Positions 22,123-51,046 of a stretch of DNA of 64,000 nucleotides are shown in pieces. The notes beneath the pieces were generated by a model, which was not told the origin of the DNA, ran no database searches, and saw only the letters and a program-made list of their open reading frames with translations. Position numbers and translations under genes: made by a program. Source of the stretch: Chloroflexota bacterium (GTDB lineage Bacteria > Chloroflexota > Anaerolineae > UBA1429). Where the stretch lies: NCBI GenBank assembly GCA_019873625.1, contig JAIOAW010000001.1:186001-250000 (forward strand), given 5' to 3'. Numbering within the stretch: position 1 is the stretch's first letter; every line of letters begins with the position of its first letter.

Positions 22123-23874
22123 ATGTTCACGACACCTCGACGCCCTGACATGCTCTTGCGCCTCATCTTGGCGGCGTTGTGCGCCCTGCTCCTCGTCTCG
22201 CCGGCGCGCCCTTTGGCGGCCGGCCCAGCGGAGCCGCCCATAGCGCTCTCCGAGGCCCTTCCCAATCGCCCCACGAAAATGGATTCCGCCATCGCCCGCG
22301 TGGCGCGCTGGAGCGCTTCCCCCGCCCTGGCCGAAGAAGCGGCCCGCGCCGCCGGGTTGCCCCTCGAAGGGGGGCGAGTTCAAGTTCACCTGGTCATCGC
22401 CGAAGGCGCGCGGGAGGCCGTATCCAAAGCCATCGAACAGGCCGGCGGTGTGGTTACCGGCCAAACCGAGGGCGGCCGGCGCTTGCAGGCTTGGCTCCCC
22501 GTCGGGGCGCTTGCGCCTCTGGCCGCCCGCGAAGACGTCTATATGATCCGCCAGGCCACGTTCGCCGAGCCGCTGGAAGGGGCCTTTACCTCCGAAGGGG
22601 TGGCGGCAAGCGGGGCTGAGGCCTGGCACGCCGAGGGGTGGCTGGGGCAAGGGGTGCGCATCGGCATCATTGACGTGGGGTTCCAGGGCTACCAGAGCCT
22701 CTTGGGGAGCGAACTCCCGGCGAGCGTCGTCGCCAAGAATTTTGTAGATGGCCAAACGGACGCCCAAGTGGATGGGACCACCCCGCACGGCACGGCCTGC
22801 GCCGAAATTGTGCACGATATGGCCCCTGGCGCGGCGCTCTATTTGGCCAAAATCCTCACAGACGTGGACCTGGCCGAGGCCGTGGCCTGGCTGAAGGATG
22901 TGCAACACGTGCGGATCATCTCGACTTCGCTGGGGTTCTTCAACCTCTCCCCCGGCGATGGCACAGGGCCTCTTGCGGATTTGGCGCGCTCCGCCGAACA
23001 GGCGGGCATCCTTTGGGTTACGGCGGCGGGCAACTACCGCGAAACGCACTGGGGCGGACCGTGGCTGGACCAAGATGGCGATTTGAAATTGGAATTCGGC
23101 CCCAACCTAGAGACGAACCGCATCCAAATCGCGGGGACATACTATTTGCCGGGCGGAACCCACCTGCGCGCCTATTTGCGCTGGAGCGACTGGACGACCG
23201 CCAACCAGGATTACGATCTTTTCATCTTCCGATGGACCGGCAGTTACTGGGATTCCGAACACCCAATAGCCTCAAGCACCAACCCACAGACGGGCGCGCC
23301 TGGGCAAACCCCCACGGAATACGCCGAGGGGTGGACTTATGGCGTGCCCACGGAATATGCGGTGGTCATCCAGCGGTATAACGCCTCGCGGGCTGTACAA
23401 TTCGAGTTGTTCGTGCCCGATGCGGATAGGCTGCAATCTTCCGTCTACGCCCGCAGCCTCGCCAACTTGGCAGATGCCCCTTCGGCGCTCACCGTGGGCG
23501 CGGTGTGGCGCAGCGCCCCCTATGGTCAGGAACCCTATAGTTCCGAGGGGCCGACGAACGGCCCGGGCGGGTCAGCGAGCGGCGGATTCCCCAAGCCGGA
23601 CCTCGCCGCCTATGACGCCGTCTCCACCCTTTCGTGGGGAGAGTTCGCCGGCACCTCGGCCTCGACGCCGCACGTGGCCGGGGCGGCGGCCATCGTGATG
23701 AGCGCCTACCCAACCTGGTCGGCGGCGCAGATTCGCGCCTTTCTCGAGGGGCGCGCCGTAGATATGGGCAGCCCCGGCCGAGATACCCAATATGGCTACG
23801 GGCGCCTTTACCTCGGCGCGCCTCCTCTTGTGAACATCAAGATGCGCCTCTGGCTGCCCTTGATTCGGCGCTAG
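22123..23874 (+). CDS. Secreted subtilisin-like serine protease (S8) with LWLPLIRR tail
   Basis: A 583-residue exported protease. The signal peptide spans about residues 1-33, and a propeptide-like region reaches to about 150. The catalytic triad is Asp184 (IIDVGFQ), His222 (PHGTACAEI) and Ser512 (GTSASTPH), with the oxyanion Asn in VTAAGNY. An insertion of about 100 residues between the Asn and the Ser forms a beta-rich pre-peptidase-like domain. The last residues are MRLWLPLIRR after a short linker. Very similar endings occur on two other exported proteins in the window (25131-27038 and 48740-51004), suggesting a shared sorting or anchoring signal. Confidence 0.92.
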   Translation: MFTTPRRPDMLLRLILAALCALLLVSPARPLAAGPAEPPIALSEALPNRPTKMDSAIARVARWSASPALAEEAARAAGLPLEGGRVQVHLVIAEGAREAVSKAIEQAGGVVTGQTEGGRRLQAWLPVGALAPLAAREDVYMIRQATFAEPLEGAFTSEGVAASGAEAWHAEGWLGQGVRIGIIDVGFQGYQSLLGSELPASVVAKNFVDGQTDAQVDGTTPHGTACAEIVHDMAPGAALYLAKILTDVDLAEAVAWLKDVQHVRIISTSLGFFNLSPGDGTGPLADLARSAEQAGILWVTAAGNYRETHWGGPWLDQDGDLKLEFGPNLETNRIQIAGTYYLPGGTHLRAYLRWSDWTTANQDYDLFIFRWTGSYWDSEHPIASSTNPQTGAPGQTPTEYAEGWTYGVPTEYAVVIQRYNASRAVQFELFVPDADRLQSSVYARSLANLADAPSALTVGAVWRSAPYGQEPYSSEGPTNGPGGSASGGFPKPDLAAYDAVSTLSWGEFAGTSASTPHVAGAAAIVMSAYPTWSAAQIRAFLEGRAVDMGSPGRDTQYGYGRLYLGAPPLVNIKMRLWLPLIRR

Positions 23875-23880
23875 GCGCCC

Positions 23881-25029
23881 TTAGCGGCGCATCCCCGGCG
23901 GCATAGGCGGCATCGGGTAGGGCCTGGGCGGGTTCAAGATCGGCCCACGGGTGATCTCGAGTGCATCCCGATCCGGCAAAGGCGGGAAGGGCGCCGTGGG
24001 CAGCGTCTGATACCAGTAGGCCACCGAGGCGATATCGTCCTGCAAGGGCAGATACCGAAAGCCCGAACGCCACCCTAGGGCCTGGATGGTGACGCGCAGG
24101 TCGCGCTCGAAGCGGATGGGGTCGGTGATGTGCCAGCGGTACATCCCAAAGCGCGTCTGCGAATCATACAGGCCGTCTGGGCGGATCACCTGGCACAGGC
24201 CGGAGTAGGGCGTGGTGAACTCCTCGTACTGGTGCGTTTCGCGGTTCTCAAAGTTGTAAGAGCCGCAGAAATAGTCCTCCGTGCCCGTGCCGCAGATGGT
24301 GGGCCACTCGTCGTCGCCATCAATGTAGAACTTGATCTCCCCTTCGCCCCACCAGCCCGCGCTGTTAGACCCCCAGGCCATATAGGTGCCCACATAGTGC
24401 CCTTGACCTTTGACGCCATCGAGGATGGTATAGACCTCTTTATAGGGCAAGGGGTTCACGCGGCGGAACTGGGCGTGAAAGTAGGCGCAATCCTCCGGTA
24501 CCTCGGTGAGGGTGTAGTTGATCTGGTAATACAGGGTTTGGCGGTCGTCATCCAGGTTGGTCATCGTGATGCGGCAGCGCTTGCGGAAGGGCATCTCCCA
24601 ATAGCAGTTGAAGGCCGAGCCGGGGTTCACGCACACGGCGAGCGATCGCACCGGCGCATAGCGGCACCAGCCGTTGGCAAAGAAATCCCCCAGGGGCACC
24701 TCCACCGAAGGCTGCTCCTGGTCATCCCAATAGATGCGCAGGATGAAAAAGCGCCAGTGGCCGGTGGGGGTCATCCAAATCTGCTGGATGGCGCCTTGCC
24801 CCTGGATATCCGCCAGGGTAAAGGTCTCGCCCGGCTCGATGCGGATGGAGGGCGAAATCTTCCAGCCGCGGCCCAGGTCGCGGGCGCAGGGGGCGCCGGT
24901 GCCATCGGTGGCCATGCCGCCCGCGCCCTTTTCGCCCGTAAAGTTTTCAGGGCTGATGGAGCGCGTTTGCGCCTTGGAAAGGCGCGAGAGGTTGCCAAGG
25001 TGCATACCGAGGCCGTTAAAGGGAGACAT
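23881..25029 (-). CDS. GH172 (DUF2961) family glycosidase
   Basis: A 382-residue protein of the former DUF2961 group, now glycoside hydrolase family 172, whose characterised members act on fructofuranose or arabinofuranose linkages. The conserved acid pair appears in EGEIKFYIDGD and GTGTEDYF (about residues 231-260), with WGSNSAGWWGEG before them. It has no signal peptide, so it acts inside the cell or leaves by another route. An AAGGAGG ribosome site precedes the ATG at 25029. It follows the LVIVD gene on the same strand after 101 bases. The exact substrate is not readable. Confidence 0.88.
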   Translation of the reverse strand: MSPFNGLGMHLGNLSRLSKAQTRSISPENFTGEKGAGGMATDGTGAPCARDLGRGWKISPSIRIEPGETFTLADIQGQGAIQQIWMTPTGHWRFFILRIYWDDQEQPSVEVPLGDFFANGWCRYAPVRSLAVCVNPGSAFNCYWEMPFRKRCRITMTNLDDDRQTLYYQINYTLTEVPEDCAYFHAQFRRVNPLPYKEVYTILDGVKGQGHYVGTYMAWGSNSAGWWGEGEIKFYIDGDDEWPTICGTGTEDYFCGSYNFENRETHQYEEFTTPYSGLCQVIRPDGLYDSQTRFGMYRWHITDPIRFERDLRVTIQALGWRSGFRYLPLQDDIASVAYWYQTLPTAPFPPLPDRDALEITRGPILNPPRPYPMPPMPPGMRR

Positions 25030-25130
25030 AGGCAGTTACCTCCTTCTCTGAGTTGGGGGCATTATGCCGTGAAGGAGAGTGGGTGGCAAGGGAGGAAAGG
25101 CCATACAACGCCTCTCGTTATTGGATTGTC

Positions 25131-27038
25131 TCAGTACCCGGAGGATATAGCGGGCAGATAGGCTCTTTTCCCAACTTCCCCCGCAAAACGCAAGATAGCA
25201 AGCCCTCCTGCCTCGAGGGTTACGTAGATATAGCCCGCCCTGATCGCCACGCCAAGAGCAGCCCCTGGCGTTTTATAAGTGTCTATGAGTTTCGGCTGCG
25301 CCGGGTTAGAGACATCAATCACCCAAAGAACCTCGGATCCGTCCGCGACATACGCATATCCTCTTCCTACAACCACATCCTCGGCAAATCCTTCAAAATC
25401 ATAAGCGCCCACTCCCATTGGGTGTGCCGGATCTGAAATGTCAACGATCCACAAGCCTTCACTTCCGTTAGCGATATAGGCATACCCTCCTGCAACCGTT
25501 ATACCTTCTCCACGGCCAGGCATGGCATAAGCCCCCACCTCCTGTGGATGCATCGGGTTTGAAACGTCAATCACTCGCAAGCCCAAGCCGTAACCCGTTA
25601 CGTAAGCGTAGTGATTCGAAACGGCGATAGCCGTGGCCCAATTCACCCCTTCGTACCATCCCACTTCAAAGGGGTTTGCCGGATCCGAGACATCAATAAT
25701 CCTCAAGCCCGAGGCTTCGGCCACGACATAAGCATAATTGTCTTCTAAGGCCACATCCAAAGTGGGAGACGGCGGAACATAGGCCCCTATTTCAAACGGA
25801 TCCGCCGGACTCGAAATATCAATAATCCGTAACCCCTGTTCATAAGCCGTCACGTAAGCATAATCTCCGCGCACAGCCACACTGAAGAAAGCAGAGGTAG
25901 CGTAGAACCCTATCTTTATCGGATTTTTTGGATCCAGCACTGAAAACACATAGAGACCTCTATCATCCGTAAGATAGGCATAACCCTTTGCGATCGCCAC
26001 TCCATGTGCATAAGCCGGCACTTCATAGGAAGACAACTCCATTGGTTGTGCGCGGTTCGAGATATCTATCACTCGCAATCCCGCCTCACCGTCTGCAACA
26101 TAAGCGTACTCTCCCGCAATTGTTGCACCATAGACAAAACTCGGCATCTCGCTCAGACCTTCTCGTATAGGATGGGCGGGGTCCGAGACGTCAATCACAT
26201 AAAATTGATCATAATCCGTTATGTAAATGTAATTGTCTCTGACGATCATCGAGGTTATGAAAGCGCTGCCCGAAGGTACTGTATAACATCCCACTTCTAT
26301 TGGCATTGTGGGATTGGAGATATCCAAAATATGGAAGCCCATCCCATTCGATACATAAGCGTATTTCCCAGCGATGACTACCTTGGATGGAATTTCCGGC
26401 ATATCATAGAAGCCAATCTCTACCGGATGCGCGGGGTCCGAGATATCCAGCACTCGCAAACCTGCATCCCAATCCGCCACATACGCATAAGCCCCTGATA
26501 CGGCCACCCCTGTTGCCATTGCCGGCAGGTCATAACTTCCTACCTCCGTAGGATTTAGCGGATCAACAACCGAAAGTACTCGCAGCCTATTCGTCGTATT
26601 CACCAAAAAGGCAAAACTTTTCGCCAACGCCATACAAGTGTAACCCAATGTCTCGAATTCTCTCACGATCTCAGGGTGTTGCGGATCGATAATATCTAGT
26701 ACGTACAGATCGCTACCCGAACTGGCATAGATATAACCTCTTACCATCGTTACATTAAAGATAGGGTTGGGAAGAAGGTGACTCTGCCCTACCACGAAGG
26801 GATGGGTCGGATCCGAAATATCCAGAACGACCACCCTATGTCCTATCCCCATATAGACATAATCCCCCCGAACCGTCGCGGAATATGCCAATCCCCCAAT
26901 CTGCCCCACGAACTCCACGTTGTGCCCGCTTTGGGCCGCCTCTGGCCCTCCCTTCGGCTCCTGTGCTGCCACCGCCCCGCTGATGACAAGCCCAACCACA
27001 ACCCATAAGGTCAGAAAGATTGCCCCGCGTTTTTTCAT
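25131..27038 (-). CDS. Secreted LVIVD-repeat beta-propeller protein
   Basis: A 635-residue exported protein with a signal peptide at about residues 1-25. It contains 14 tandem repeats of about 42 residues with the LVIVD pattern (for example YAYVADWDAGLRVLDISDP), the last one partial; 14 would suit two seven-bladed propellers. The tail is KRAYLPAISSGY, resembling the endings of the subtilase and the SpoIID protein. No catalytic residues are evident, so binding or adhesion is likely. The DNA is clearly less GC-rich than its neighbours and uses more A/T-ending codons, which suggests a different history or relaxed selection. It has its own promoter. Confidence 0.88.
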   Translation of the reverse strand: MKKRGAIFLTLWVVVGLVISGAVAAQEPKGGPEAAQSGHNVEFVGQIGGLAYSATVRGDYVYMGIGHRVVVLDISDPTHPFVVGQSHLLPNPIFNVTMVRGYIYASSGSDLYVLDIIDPQHPEIVREFETLGYTCMALAKSFAFLVNTTNRLRVLSVVDPLNPTEVGSYDLPAMATGVAVSGAYAYVADWDAGLRVLDISDPAHPVEIGFYDMPEIPSKVVIAGKYAYVSNGMGFHILDISNPTMPIEVGCYTVPSGSAFITSMIVRDNYIYITDYDQFYVIDVSDPAHPIREGLSEMPSFVYGATIAGEYAYVADGEAGLRVIDISNRAQPMELSSYEVPAYAHGVAIAKGYAYLTDDRGLYVFSVLDPKNPIKIGFYATSAFFSVAVRGDYAYVTAYEQGLRIIDISSPADPFEIGAYVPPSPTLDVALEDNYAYVVAEASGLRIIDVSDPANPFEVGWYEGVNWATAIAVSNHYAYVTGYGLGLRVIDVSNPMHPQEVGAYAMPGRGEGITVAGGYAYIANGSEGLWIVDISDPAHPMGVGAYDFEGFAEDVVVGRGYAYVADGSEVLWVIDVSNPAQPKLIDTYKTPGAALGVAIRAGYIYVTLEAGGLAILRFAGEVGKRAYLPAISSGY

Positions 27039-47808: not shown

Positions 47809-48762
47809 ATGCCGAGCAAAACGCCCTTTCAGCCCCCTCGCCCGAGGCGCCGCGCCGCTTCGCTTGGGCTTATCGCCCTGAGCCTCATCGCCCTCGTGGG
47901 CATTTGGCAGTGGCTGGCTCAGCGCAACCGCCCTTTGCCCATCGCAGCGGAACTGCGCGTCCTCCAAGGGCAAGCCATCGTCTCCCGCGCCGACGCGGGC
48001 CAAGATCCGCCCTACACGGCGGGCGCCGCCACCCGCCTTCAACGCGGCGATGAGGTCCATACCTCGGCAGATGGCCAAGCGGAACTCGACTTTGGCGAAG
48101 GAGAGACGATCGCCCTTGGCCCCCAGGCGCACCTCATCATCCTGGAATTGTATCGCAGCCCCATCGTGCGCGGGCTGATGGCCTCGCTGGCCCTCGAGCA
48201 AGGCAAGGTCATCGTGCGCCTTCCTCGCTGGCGGCCAGAGGGGATGCGCGTGGCCATCGAAACGCGCATTGCCACCGTAGAGGCGAGCGGGACGGCCTTT
48301 CAATGCGAGGTGCTCGATAAGGAACGCATCGAGGTGATCGTCCAAGAGGGGAAGGTCACCGTCTCGATGGGGGAGCAAAGCCTGACGCTTCAGGCCGGGC
48401 AGGCCGTCGAGGCGCGTTTGGGCCAGCCCCTGGTCGCAATAGGCGCGCCAGCCCTTCCTTCGCCCATCCCTACCCCCTCCCGATCGGGCACGGCGCAAAC
48501 GCCGCCCTCTCAGGCCATCCCCACGGCCACTGCGACGTTGACGGACCTCCAAAAGACCCTCTTCCCACCAGCGCGCACGCCTACCCGCCCAGGCGACGAC
48601 CGCATTTACTACACCGTGCAACCGGGAGACACCCTTTATAGCATCGCTCGCCGCTACGGCCTCCCCTGGGAGGCAATTTGGGAGGCCAACAAGGCCACCC
48701 TCCCCCGGCCGGAGGATCTGCGCGCCGGCCAACAGTTGCTCATCCCCCGGCCTTCGCCGTGA
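47809..48762 (+). CDS. Membrane-anchored FecR-domain protein with C-terminal LysM
   Basis: A 317-residue protein. One hydrophobic helix (about residues 15-33) anchors it. The extracytoplasmic part is a FecR-type beta domain (about 45-210, with LQRGDEVHTSADGQAELDF and VEASGTAFQCEV), a Pro/Thr-rich linker and a LysM motif (YTVQPGDTLYSIARRYGL, about 265-310) that should bind peptidoglycan. FecR domains usually signal to sigma factors, but no sigma gene is adjacent, so a structural role is more likely. The 3' end overlaps the convergent SpoIID-domain gene by 23 bases. Confidence 0.88.
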   Translation: MPSKTPFQPPRPRRRAASLGLIALSLIALVGIWQWLAQRNRPLPIAAELRVLQGQAIVSRADAGQDPPYTAGAATRLQRGDEVHTSADGQAELDFGEGETIALGPQAHLIILELYRSPIVRGLMASLALEQGKVIVRLPRWRPEGMRVAIETRIATVEASGTAFQCEVLDKERIEVIVQEGKVTVSMGEQSLTLQAGQAVEARLGQPLVAIGAPALPSPIPTPSRSGTAQTPPSQAIPTATATLTDLQKTLFPPARTPTRPGDDRIYYTVQPGDTLYSIARRYGLPWEAIWEANKATLPRPEDLRAGQQLLIPRPSP

Positions 48763-51004
48763 TGAGGGGTAGCCACAGTTTGGGCGGCAAATCAAGGGGG
48801 ATGAGCAGCGGGGCGCTCTCCACCCAATTTCCAGCCACATCGCGGATGCGGTAACGAAGGTGCGTCCGCGCGGAGGAGCCTTCCGGCGGCGCAGGGGCCT
48901 CAAGCTGCACCGGCGCCGTGATGCCGACGCTTGCCTCCACCGTAAGGGGTTGCCAGGGGGCCCACGTCTTGCCCCCGTCATATGAGGCGGCCCAGGCCGC
49001 TGATGCGGGATCCAGGCCGGAGAGCGCATCCTGCACCCAAAGGGCGGGGGGCGTAACCGTCAACCACTGCGGAGGGGTGAGATCCACCCCCACGGTGAGG
49101 GGGAAATCGGCGCTATTGCCGGCGACATCGCGCAAACGCACGGTGAGGGGATGCAGCCCTTCTTGGGGCAAGGGCCAAGAGGCCGTCATCGCCGCAGTCA
49201 ACGTGATGGGCGCGCTAAAGGCCGCGATGCGGTCGAGATACAGGTCTCCCGCGCCGCTGTACCAGGTGCGGAATTCCAGGCCGTCTCCGCTCGTGGGCGT
49301 GGCGCAGGTGGGCGCCTGCGCGCCGTAAGAGAAGCGTAGAGAGAACTCCTCATAAACGCCACTTGCGGAAAATTCCTGGGCCGCAAGGGGGCGTTCGGCA
49401 TAGCGCCGAGCGCCCTGGGCATCGGCGACATCTATGGTCAAAAGGCCGATGGATCGGGTGCGGTCGGAGGTCTTGAAGCGATAAAAGACCTCATAATCGC
49501 GCCCGGGCGGGAGCGCGCAGGTATAGGGGCCGTACCAAGCGCCGGGGCTATTCTGCCCGGCCAAGCCGGCGAGCGCCAGCCCGCCGGAAGCGGCGGGGTC
49601 GGCCACTACCTGCGCCGTGCCCGCCCAATAGGGGAGGGATTCGCCCTCCCAGGCCCATCCCTCGCTGAATTGGATGGCCGTGGCCTCTGACCCGGAGATG
49701 GTTACCGTGACAAAGGGCGTAATGCTCCAAGGCGCAGAGGAGACCGCCCCTGTGGGCGGCGTGTTATCCACCCACACTAGAATGCTCACTTCGCCCTGCC
49801 CTTGCGAACCATTGACCACGGCGCGCAGGGTATGGGGGCCTTCGGTTTCGGCGGCTGTGTTCCAATACCAAACCAGCGAGGCATCCCCTTGGGCACGGAG
49901 GGCGCCATCTACATAGTAGGCGAGGTAGGTTATGTTCCCGCTCCCCGTTACCGCCGGGCGGATGACCCCTCTCACCCGTTGCCCATCTTGCGGCGTGAGG
50001 AACGTTAGGCTAGGGGGCACCTCGATGCCTGTATAGTAATGCGTGAGAATATCCACGTAGGAATACCCTTGGAGCGCCATAGCGCGCGCCCCCTCTTGGC
50101 ACATCCCCACGCCGTGGCCCCACATAAAGGTATATCCACAGGAGCAGGGCACGCTCCGCAAATAGGGCACCGGCGCGCCGGCCCACACTTCCTCGTTATT
50201 GCGCGTGCGGCCGTCGCAATGCGCAAAAAAGAAGGCGTAGATGATGTTCCCCTGGTAGCGCCCCACGATGCCTCGCGTATCGGCCACGGCGCGGTCTGTG
50301 GTATCGTAATAGCGGTTGTTCCACACCTGGCAATGGGTGGTGGTGCATATATCGGCGCCCACGTCGAGGTGGGCGTGGCGGGTGGCCGCGTAACTGCGGG
50401 CCGCCACGGCCTGGGCGCGCAGGGCCTCCCGCGGCCAAGTGGGGGGCATTTCGCTCGGCACCACGCCGCGCAGATACTCTTCCAGGGCCATCACCACCAC
50501 AGCCCCATCCGGCATCAGGACGCGAATCGTCTCCGGCACCTGCGTGACGGCGGCCGCGCCCACAGCGCCGGGCAAATCCTCCGGATGTTGCACGGTGGAG
50601 ACATCCTGCGCCAAACCGCGCAGTTTGGCCTCGATCTTGGCCTCCGCGCGCTCATCGGGCGCTTCGGGCACCATCTCCCAATCGAGGGGCCGGGCCTCTT
50701 CGGCGCGGACGAGGACAAAGGCCTGGGTCATCCCAATGTAACCGGGGGCCTCGGCGCGAATGTGGTAACGCCCTTCGGGGAGCGCGAGGAGGTAATGCCC
50801 ATTTGCATCGGTGCGCGCGGCATAGCCCGCCGCACTCACGAGCACCCCTGGGAGCGGTTCCTCGGTTACGATATCGGTAACGCGCCCTTCCAGCCGGCCA
50901 TAGGGGGGCGCCCCGCCCGCCACAAGCGGCGAGGGGACGCGAACGAGCCAGGCCATCGTCACGAGGGCGATGGCCGCAAGAAGCCCTGTCAAGCATCGAA
51001 CCAC
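48740..51004 (-). CDS. Exported SpoIID/LytB-domain protein with LWLPLI tail
   Basis: A 754-residue exported protein. After a signal sequence (about 1-30) comes a carboxypeptidase-regulatory-like domain (GRVTDIVTEEPLPGVLVSA, about 40-110), then a SpoIID/LytB catalytic domain (LEEYLRGVVPSEMP, ALRAQAVAARSYA, GHGVGMCQEGA), known in sporulation as a peptidoglycan lytic transglycosylase, then several beta-sandwich domains. The C-terminus PKLWLPLITAKAGG resembles the tails of the subtilase and LVIVD proteins. I prefer the GTG at 51004, 5 bases after GGAGG, over the ATG at 51037. It lies 43 bases after the endonuclease V gene. Confidence 0.88.
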   Translation of the reverse strand: MVRCLTGLLAAIALVTMAWLVRVPSPLVAGGAPPYGRLEGRVTDIVTEEPLPGVLVSAAGYAARTDANGHYLLALPEGRYHIRAEAPGYIGMTQAFVLVRAEEARPLDWEMVPEAPDERAEAKIEAKLRGLAQDVSTVQHPEDLPGAVGAAAVTQVPETIRVLMPDGAVVVMALEEYLRGVVPSEMPPTWPREALRAQAVAARSYAATRHAHLDVGADICTTTHCQVWNNRYYDTTDRAVADTRGIVGRYQGNIIYAFFFAHCDGRTRNNEEVWAGAPVPYLRSVPCSCGYTFMWGHGVGMCQEGARAMALQGYSYVDILTHYYTGIEVPPSLTFLTPQDGQRVRGVIRPAVTGSGNITYLAYYVDGALRAQGDASLVWYWNTAAETEGPHTLRAVVNGSQGQGEVSILVWVDNTPPTGAVSSAPWSITPFVTVTISGSEATAIQFSEGWAWEGESLPYWAGTAQVVADPAASGGLALAGLAGQNSPGAWYGPYTCALPPGRDYEVFYRFKTSDRTRSIGLLTIDVADAQGARRYAERPLAAQEFSASGVYEEFSLRFSYGAQAPTCATPTSGDGLEFRTWYSGAGDLYLDRIAAFSAPITLTAAMTASWPLPQEGLHPLTVRLRDVAGNSADFPLTVGVDLTPPQWLTVTPPALWVQDALSGLDPASAAWAASYDGGKTWAPWQPLTVEASVGITAPVQLEAPAPPEGSSARTHLRYRIRDVAGNWVESAPLLIPLDLPPKLWLPLITAKAGG

Positions 51005-51046
51005 GCGCACCTCCTCAATAGAGCGGGGAGATTCCATGCTTCAACC

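Follow-up and report, generated by a model that had tools for sequence, protein, structure and literature searches.

A short C-terminal tail on exported Chloroflexota proteins as a probable envelope-sorting tag, and its divergent YLP-box-like variant

We identified a short tail at the extreme C-terminus of three predicted exported proteins encoded in the window (the whole 64,000-nucleotide stretch of Chloroflexota DNA analysed here), and we propose, with a probability of roughly 70%, that it acts after Sec export as an address tag, keeping proteins in the multilayered Chloroflexota envelope via a putative dedicated partner. A carrier would cross the membrane through Sec, guided by its signal peptide, whereupon a dedicated extracytoplasmic partner, either a receptor or an enzyme, would read the short hydrophobic-basic core. 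The carrier would then be held in the outer layers of the envelope, the partner either binding the tail as it stands or cutting it off and attaching the protein, two modes that we consider about equally likely. A sequence-only reading of the same DNA had proposed a sorting, anchoring or processing signal; we favor the sorting or anchoring part because carriers are exported, unrelated in fold and devoid of other recognizable anchors, while the tail itself is modular, following variable linkers, and phylum-specific. Although considered monoderm, Chloroflexota have an envelope of several layers that includes an S-layer-like lattice (PMC13319060), and in Litorilinea aerophila the envelope consists of a cytoplasmic membrane, peptidoglycan, an inner layer, an outer layer and an S-layer-like lattice of unknown make-up (PMC13319060). 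Such an envelope therefore offers something to which a tag could attach, and a phylum-specific, anchor-excluding tag hints at a dedicated route for envelope proteins.

The genes, signal sequences and tails of the three carriers are as follows (window positions).

22123..23874, + strand: S8 subtilase gene, 583 aa, with N-terminal signal sequence and YLP-box-like C-terminal tail (open reading frame; PF00082, E=3.9e-26)
22123..22218, + strand: subtilase signal sequence, approximate (hydrophobic N-terminus)
23839..23874, + strand: subtilase tail KMRLWLPLIRR and stop (codons; pLDDT <50 at residues 571-583)
25131..27038, - strand: LVIVD-repeat beta-propeller gene, 635 aa, with signal sequence and tail (PF08309, E=1e-111)
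26961..27038, - strand: LVIVD protein signal sequence, approximate (MKKRGAIFLTLWVVVGLVISGAVAAQ, read directly)
25131..25169, - strand: LVIVD protein tail KRAYLPAISSGY and stop (codons; pLDDT <50 at residues 619-635)
48740..51037, - strand: SpoIID/LytB protein gene, 765 aa, with carboxypeptidase-regulatory-like and Ig-like domains, signal sequence and tail (TIGR02669, E=1.1e-53; PF08486, PF13620, PF17957)
50915..51037, - strand: SpoIID protein signal sequence, approximate (hydrophobic N-terminus)
48740..48784, - strand: SpoIID protein tail PKLWLPLITAKAGG and stop (codons; orthologs)

All three endings that the sequence-only reading had likened to one another are present in the sequence. Its further claims also held, in that hydrophobic N-termini predict a signal sequence on each carrier and the domain matches (S8, LVIVD beta-propeller and SpoIID/LytB) assign them to unrelated folds; the codon spans that it gave for the LVIVD and SpoIID tails correctly took in the stop but left out the first tail codon. 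With only 4-8 residues between the Pro and the end, these tails leave no room for a transmembrane (TM) helix. The LVIVD gene was probably acquired by transfer, tail included, because its GC3 is 0.51 as compared to 0.79 +/- 0.04 for the genome.

Beyond the window, we counted the pattern [YWF][LM]P[LIVA][IVMLF] within 12 residues of the C-terminus in 864 kb of the 2.76 Mb source genome, taken in stretches. With classes predicted by a crude hydropathy rule for signal peptides and anchors, the terminal pattern occurs in 5/97 exported, 0/430 cytoplasmic and 2/143 membrane proteins, and the five exported occurrences stand against 0.03 expected from the internal frequency in the exported set. Three of these five are the window's own, picked after the fact, and two are independent: a 1228-aa protein (C2:142290-145973) ending KYYLPIVRR and a cohesin-like protein (C11:16600-17400) ending KFIYMPLMFKLKTVTFFTP, a YMP tail. 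A commoner occurrence at exported than at cytoplasmic C-termini, for which the sequence-only reading had proposed a test, is thus borne out in a genome that is itself low in tails (5 in 864 kb). That the three window tails resemble one another by chance might be suspected of a short motif, particularly as the three cases were chosen after reading and the NCBI model for the motif does not match them; given this enrichment, the persistence of the tail in subtilase and SpoIID orthologs, and the all-taxa search described below, we regard chance as close to negligible. A DUF58 protein (window:4574-5905) ends WVPVVGGKARES and fits a relaxed pattern; we judged this ending to be fortuitous because the domain is not of a secreted-protein type.

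Comparison of orthologs describes how the tail is kept. The closest subtilase orthologs, at 47-48% identity, end FRVFLPRLYR (genome G094), SRVFMPTLQR (G230) and LEVYLPRLQR (G198), and that of G137 ends YRLYLPAVLR, while more distant subtilase homologs with other C-terminal domains have no tail. Within the window's own family, subtilases end RVWLPVALRP, QYWLPLARR and RAYLPMTTR, and the SpoIID orthologs with readable C-termini end QELPLVFNQK, NLPLVLRQC, FLQLPLLFK, RLFLPLALRPAP, AWAQIPLVLK, VTFVPLARR, RVYLPAVLR, LTFVPLASR and PVLLPLILSVTP. The family thus keeps the Pro and a Leu/Val/Ile neighbor and relaxes the Tyr (to Trp, Phe and even Glu, Asn or Gln). SpoIID homologs from other families end TYFPRTDKN.., IRFPSIYNK.., THLPYVVK and VYLPLVLHQF, and no tail-like ending was found on those of the tail-poor family f21. 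For the LVIVD protein, the evidence of conservation comes from one homolog, in G011, which ends HHLYLPLVLRSSQSP.

The linker between catalytic domain and tail in the subtilase orthologs ranges from a few to ~60 residues, with Ser-Pro (SPSPSP) repeats in two, and linkers spanning this range of lengths in subtilase and SpoIID orthologs are often Ser/Thr-Pro repeats. AlphaFold assigns pLDDT <50 to subtilase residues 571-583 and LVIVD residues 619-635, outside the fold, in models that are both of medium quality, the LVIVD model being built from two sequences. These predictions and ortholog comparisons show the tail as a module, predicted to lie outside the folded domain, placed behind a linker of variable length and surviving where ortholog linkers have diverged. 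The sequence-only reading had allowed that the tails might prove to be the last strand of an ordinary fold, and a short hydrophobic stretch ending beta-rich proteins could indeed serve as a strand or cap. The low pLDDT, the variable linkers and the unrelated domains of the carriers (S8, beta-propeller, Ig-like, RCC1, CAP, laminin-G and beta-helix) make this very improbable.

The tail is also associated with export and with the exclusion of other anchors. Of 47 complete-ORF carriers recovered with the DNA pattern described below, 41 show a signal peptide, with no lipobox among them; the others are apparently truncated, frame-shifted or non-coding. Across eight genomes, with signal peptides and anchors called by the crude hydropathy rule, 44/145 tail-less exported proteins and 0/25 tail carriers have a lipobox or C-terminal TM helix (p=0.0003); for the lipobox alone, the counts are 33/145 and 0/25, respectively (p=0.003). 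The observation that proteins with another anchor have no tail, first made within the window, therefore extends beyond it. Moreover, an 18-residue stretch of mean hydropathy >=1.6 was found in 1/103 tails, such that a TM helix is generally absent. The choice-of-anchor families of NCBI take their name from a shared domain paired with different C-terminal anchors; one choice-of-anchor Q protein elsewhere bears the tail, and the LVIVD protein falls just short of the threshold for choice-of-anchor B (TIGR04312; 97.7 bits, cut-off 100). On contig C11 of the source genome, two adjacent cohesin-like proteins share a common plan (signal, cohesin and Thr/Pro linker), ending in a TM helix in one and in the YMP tail in the other. 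No solved structure was found for the cohesin-like carrier. Next to this pair lies a beta-helix protein that weakly matches dockerin. As a resource, the analysis provides a substrate list, genomes with and without the tail, and this adjacent paralog pair in which a TM anchor can be set against a tail.

The canonical form of the tail is [VIL]-Y-L-P-L-[VI]-x-[RK]-(0-5)-end. This form summarizes 103 distinct tails, most with 4-6 residues after the Pro, in a set partly selected with the motif, which inflates the position frequencies; the core is coded in 17 different ways among the loci of G011. We scanned GTDB genomes of all taxa (257 Gb) with an exact DNA pattern for YLPLV-x-R-..-stop, TACCTGCCNCTGGTNNTGCG..TGA, and obtained 54 matching stretches, 49 of them from Chloroflexota with titles of Chloroflexi, Anaerolineae, Thermoflexia, Caldilineales, Ardenticatenales or Oscillochloris. 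The Chloroflexota matches lie in frame at the C-termini of unrelated proteins, while the other five (Hymenobacter, Bdellovibrionales, Edwardsiella and two from Mucilaginibacter) are internal or in tiny ORFs. A degenerate pattern far exceeded its reversed control in G011 (95 vs 8) and in other genomes (34/4, 29/4 and 27/4), a stricter pattern gave 39 vs 1 in G011, and in some other Chloroflexota genomes the degenerate pattern showed no such excess. The canonical pattern was unmatched in the viral contigs scanned. The canonical tail is therefore specific to Chloroflexota, where hundreds of exported proteins bear it and where it occurs in many lineages but not in all, families f21, f31 and f54 being tail-poor.

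These features bear on two further ways in which such a tail could act. Aromatic, hydrophobic and basic residues might bind the membrane surface directly, with no dedicated partner, as the hydrophobic core and the Lys or Arg at the fourth residue after the Pro would permit (99/103 tails, a frequency inflated by sets that are partly motif-selected). We consider such passive anchoring rather unlikely because 5-6 hydrophobic residues are too few for a membrane span; moreover, conservation of the Leu-Pro pair and of the spacing to the end goes far past what composition would need, and the tail is altogether absent from other Chloroflexota lineages. Alternatively, an extracytoplasmic protease or chaperone could recognize the tail during quality control or maturation, rather than in sorting or anchoring. 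A tail that is short, terminal, basic and predicted to be unstructured would suit such a role, but the final residue is highly variable (R, P, Y, N, D, S), unlike in the C-terminal degrons of PDZ or Tsp-type proteases, and readers of a free C-terminus are disfavored because of this variation. The exclusion of other anchors would also be unexpected for a degradation tag, and we deem this explanation unlikely as well, if a little less so than direct membrane binding.

A dedicated partner for the proposed sorting tag was sought among gene neighbors and known sorting enzymes. No recurrent neighbor of tail genes was found, an all-against-all comparison returning only other carriers or housekeeping families. 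The source genome and most of the tail-rich genomes examined lack exosortase (PF09721), which is absent from G000, G168, G166, G238, G110 and all genomes of family f23 that were tested, a distribution that does not match the tails. A sortase is present in the source genome and in most tail-rich genomes; G000 has one, but the tail-rich G168, ~97% complete, carries many tails and gave no sortase match, although an assembly gap is possible. We rejected both enzymes; the putative partner is neither exosortase nor, in at least one tail-rich genome, an ordinary sortase.

We also compared the tail with the tags of known systems. The LPXTG tag resembles the YLP-type tail as a C-terminal tag on Sec-exported proteins with a Leu-Pro core and a basic residue after it; however, its motif is followed by a TM helix and a basic cluster, while the window tails have no TM helix after the core, and its use entails a sortase, for which G168 gave no match. 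PEP-CTERM and the archaeosortase, rhombosortase and myxosortase tags likewise place one C-terminal tag on many unrelated exported proteins per genome. The tags LPXTG, PEP-CTERM, PGF-CTERM, GlyGly-CTERM and MYXO-CTERM are all tripartite and include a TM helix (PMC11980579), whereas the YLP-type tail has no such helix and, in the case of PEP-CTERM, the exosortase is missing from the source genome and most of the tail-rich ones tested. The C-terminal domain of type IX secretion is likewise a soluble signal without a TM helix, read after Sec export and directing proteins toward the cell surface. This signal, however, is a whole Ig-like domain (PMC4804311) of Bacteroidota, in contrast to ~10 apparently unstructured residues (pLDDT <50) in Chloroflexota. 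The tail is thus a member of none of these systems, though it may work in a similar manner. We hypothesize, tentatively and at slightly less than even odds, that the YLP-box serves as the address in a protein-sorting pathway with no relation to sortase, exosortase, rhombosortase, myxosortase or type IX secretion, in which a membrane-free tag of ten residues would direct up to >100 proteins per cell to the outer layers of the multilayered envelope by means of a Chloroflexota-specific extracytoplasmic machine, with the window's family using a relaxed tag.

The nearest known relative of the tail is the motif registered at NCBI. The sequence-only reading knew of no described machinery, and we too found none; the motif itself, however, already has a name in NCBIfam (release 20.0), where NF050076.1 (sort_motif_YLP) and NF053834.1 (ultrashort_CTERM) are both entitled "YLP-box putative sorting motif-containing protein". 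A search of the open literature, with subscription journals outside its scope, found no paper on the YLP-box. In ten tail-rich Chloroflexota, NF050076 has 119, 48, 41, 38, 34, 23, 21, 17, 16 and 15 matches, as compared to 0-2 in tail-poor Chloroflexota and one in the window's genome; the model was run in six frames and finds chance matches in control genomes too, so that counts were used and single matches carry little weight. Neither model picks up any of the three proteins of the window, even at E values as high as 10; tail-rich relatives repeatedly reach the curated cut-off. The window tails nevertheless share with the registered motif its YLP core, hydrophobic pair and basic residue, its place at the extreme C-terminus of predicted exported proteins, its brevity and invariant Pro, and its phylum, and in tail-rich genomes the proteins homologous to those of the window bear the canonical YLP-box. 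They differ in that the window's family has a relaxed Tyr and a relaxed ending, which fall below the models; this divergent form reads hydrophobic or aromatic residue, Leu/Met/Val, invariant Pro, Leu/Ala/Met, hydrophobic residue, x, Lys/Arg, 0-6 residues and end. Judged by sequence, the window tails are a divergent variant of the YLP-box already registered at NCBI. Relative to that registration, what is new is this variant, which the NCBI models miss across the window's family, together with evidence on the modularity of the tail, its exclusion of other anchors and its independence from the classical sorting enzymes.

We noted two genes in the window, one of them a carrier of the tail and the other a look-alike:

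window:25131-27038, minus strand, LVIVD-repeat gene
window:4574-5905, plus strand, DUF58 protein gene

The LVIVD-repeat gene has a GC of 0.51 and a GC3 of 0.51, against a gene GC3 of 0.79 +/- 0.04 for the genome. A search of 251 Chloroflexota genomes recovered a strong homolog (E <= 1e-60) in just one besides the window's own. From its deviant GC3 and this restricted distribution, the gene probably originated by recent horizontal transfer. The DUF58 protein ends in WVPVVGGKARES, which is similar to the relaxed tail, though this likeness was judged to be chance and the protein rejected as a carrier, DUF58 not being a domain of secreted proteins.

Carriers elsewhere include:

G238:C1:815000-834000 (L228), RCC1-repeat tandem array in another Chloroflexota genome
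L140:2706-3281, doubled tail motif
L021:11896-17403, three-gene cohesin cluster on contig C11 of the window's own genome (G000)

The array comprises approximately four near-identical exported proteins, each terminating in YLPMI[VI]R. The single C-terminus at L140 has two consecutive motifs (SLPLVVRDYRPPVGKPMLYLPLVLRGP), with the frame broken upstream in the source MAG. Members of one family of exported proteins of ~100 aa with GGGYxLxGGFWGG motifs (loci L141, L143, L155, L174, L175, and L180) run straight into terminal tails (e.g. YRVYLPLVLRNY), and their genes in some cases adjoin other tail carriers.

The cohesin cluster encodes a beta-helix protein that matches cohesin and, weakly, dockerin, together with two cohesin-like proteins, one bearing a C-terminal transmembrane helix and the other the YMP tail. 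The cluster looks like a small cellulosome-like scaffold.
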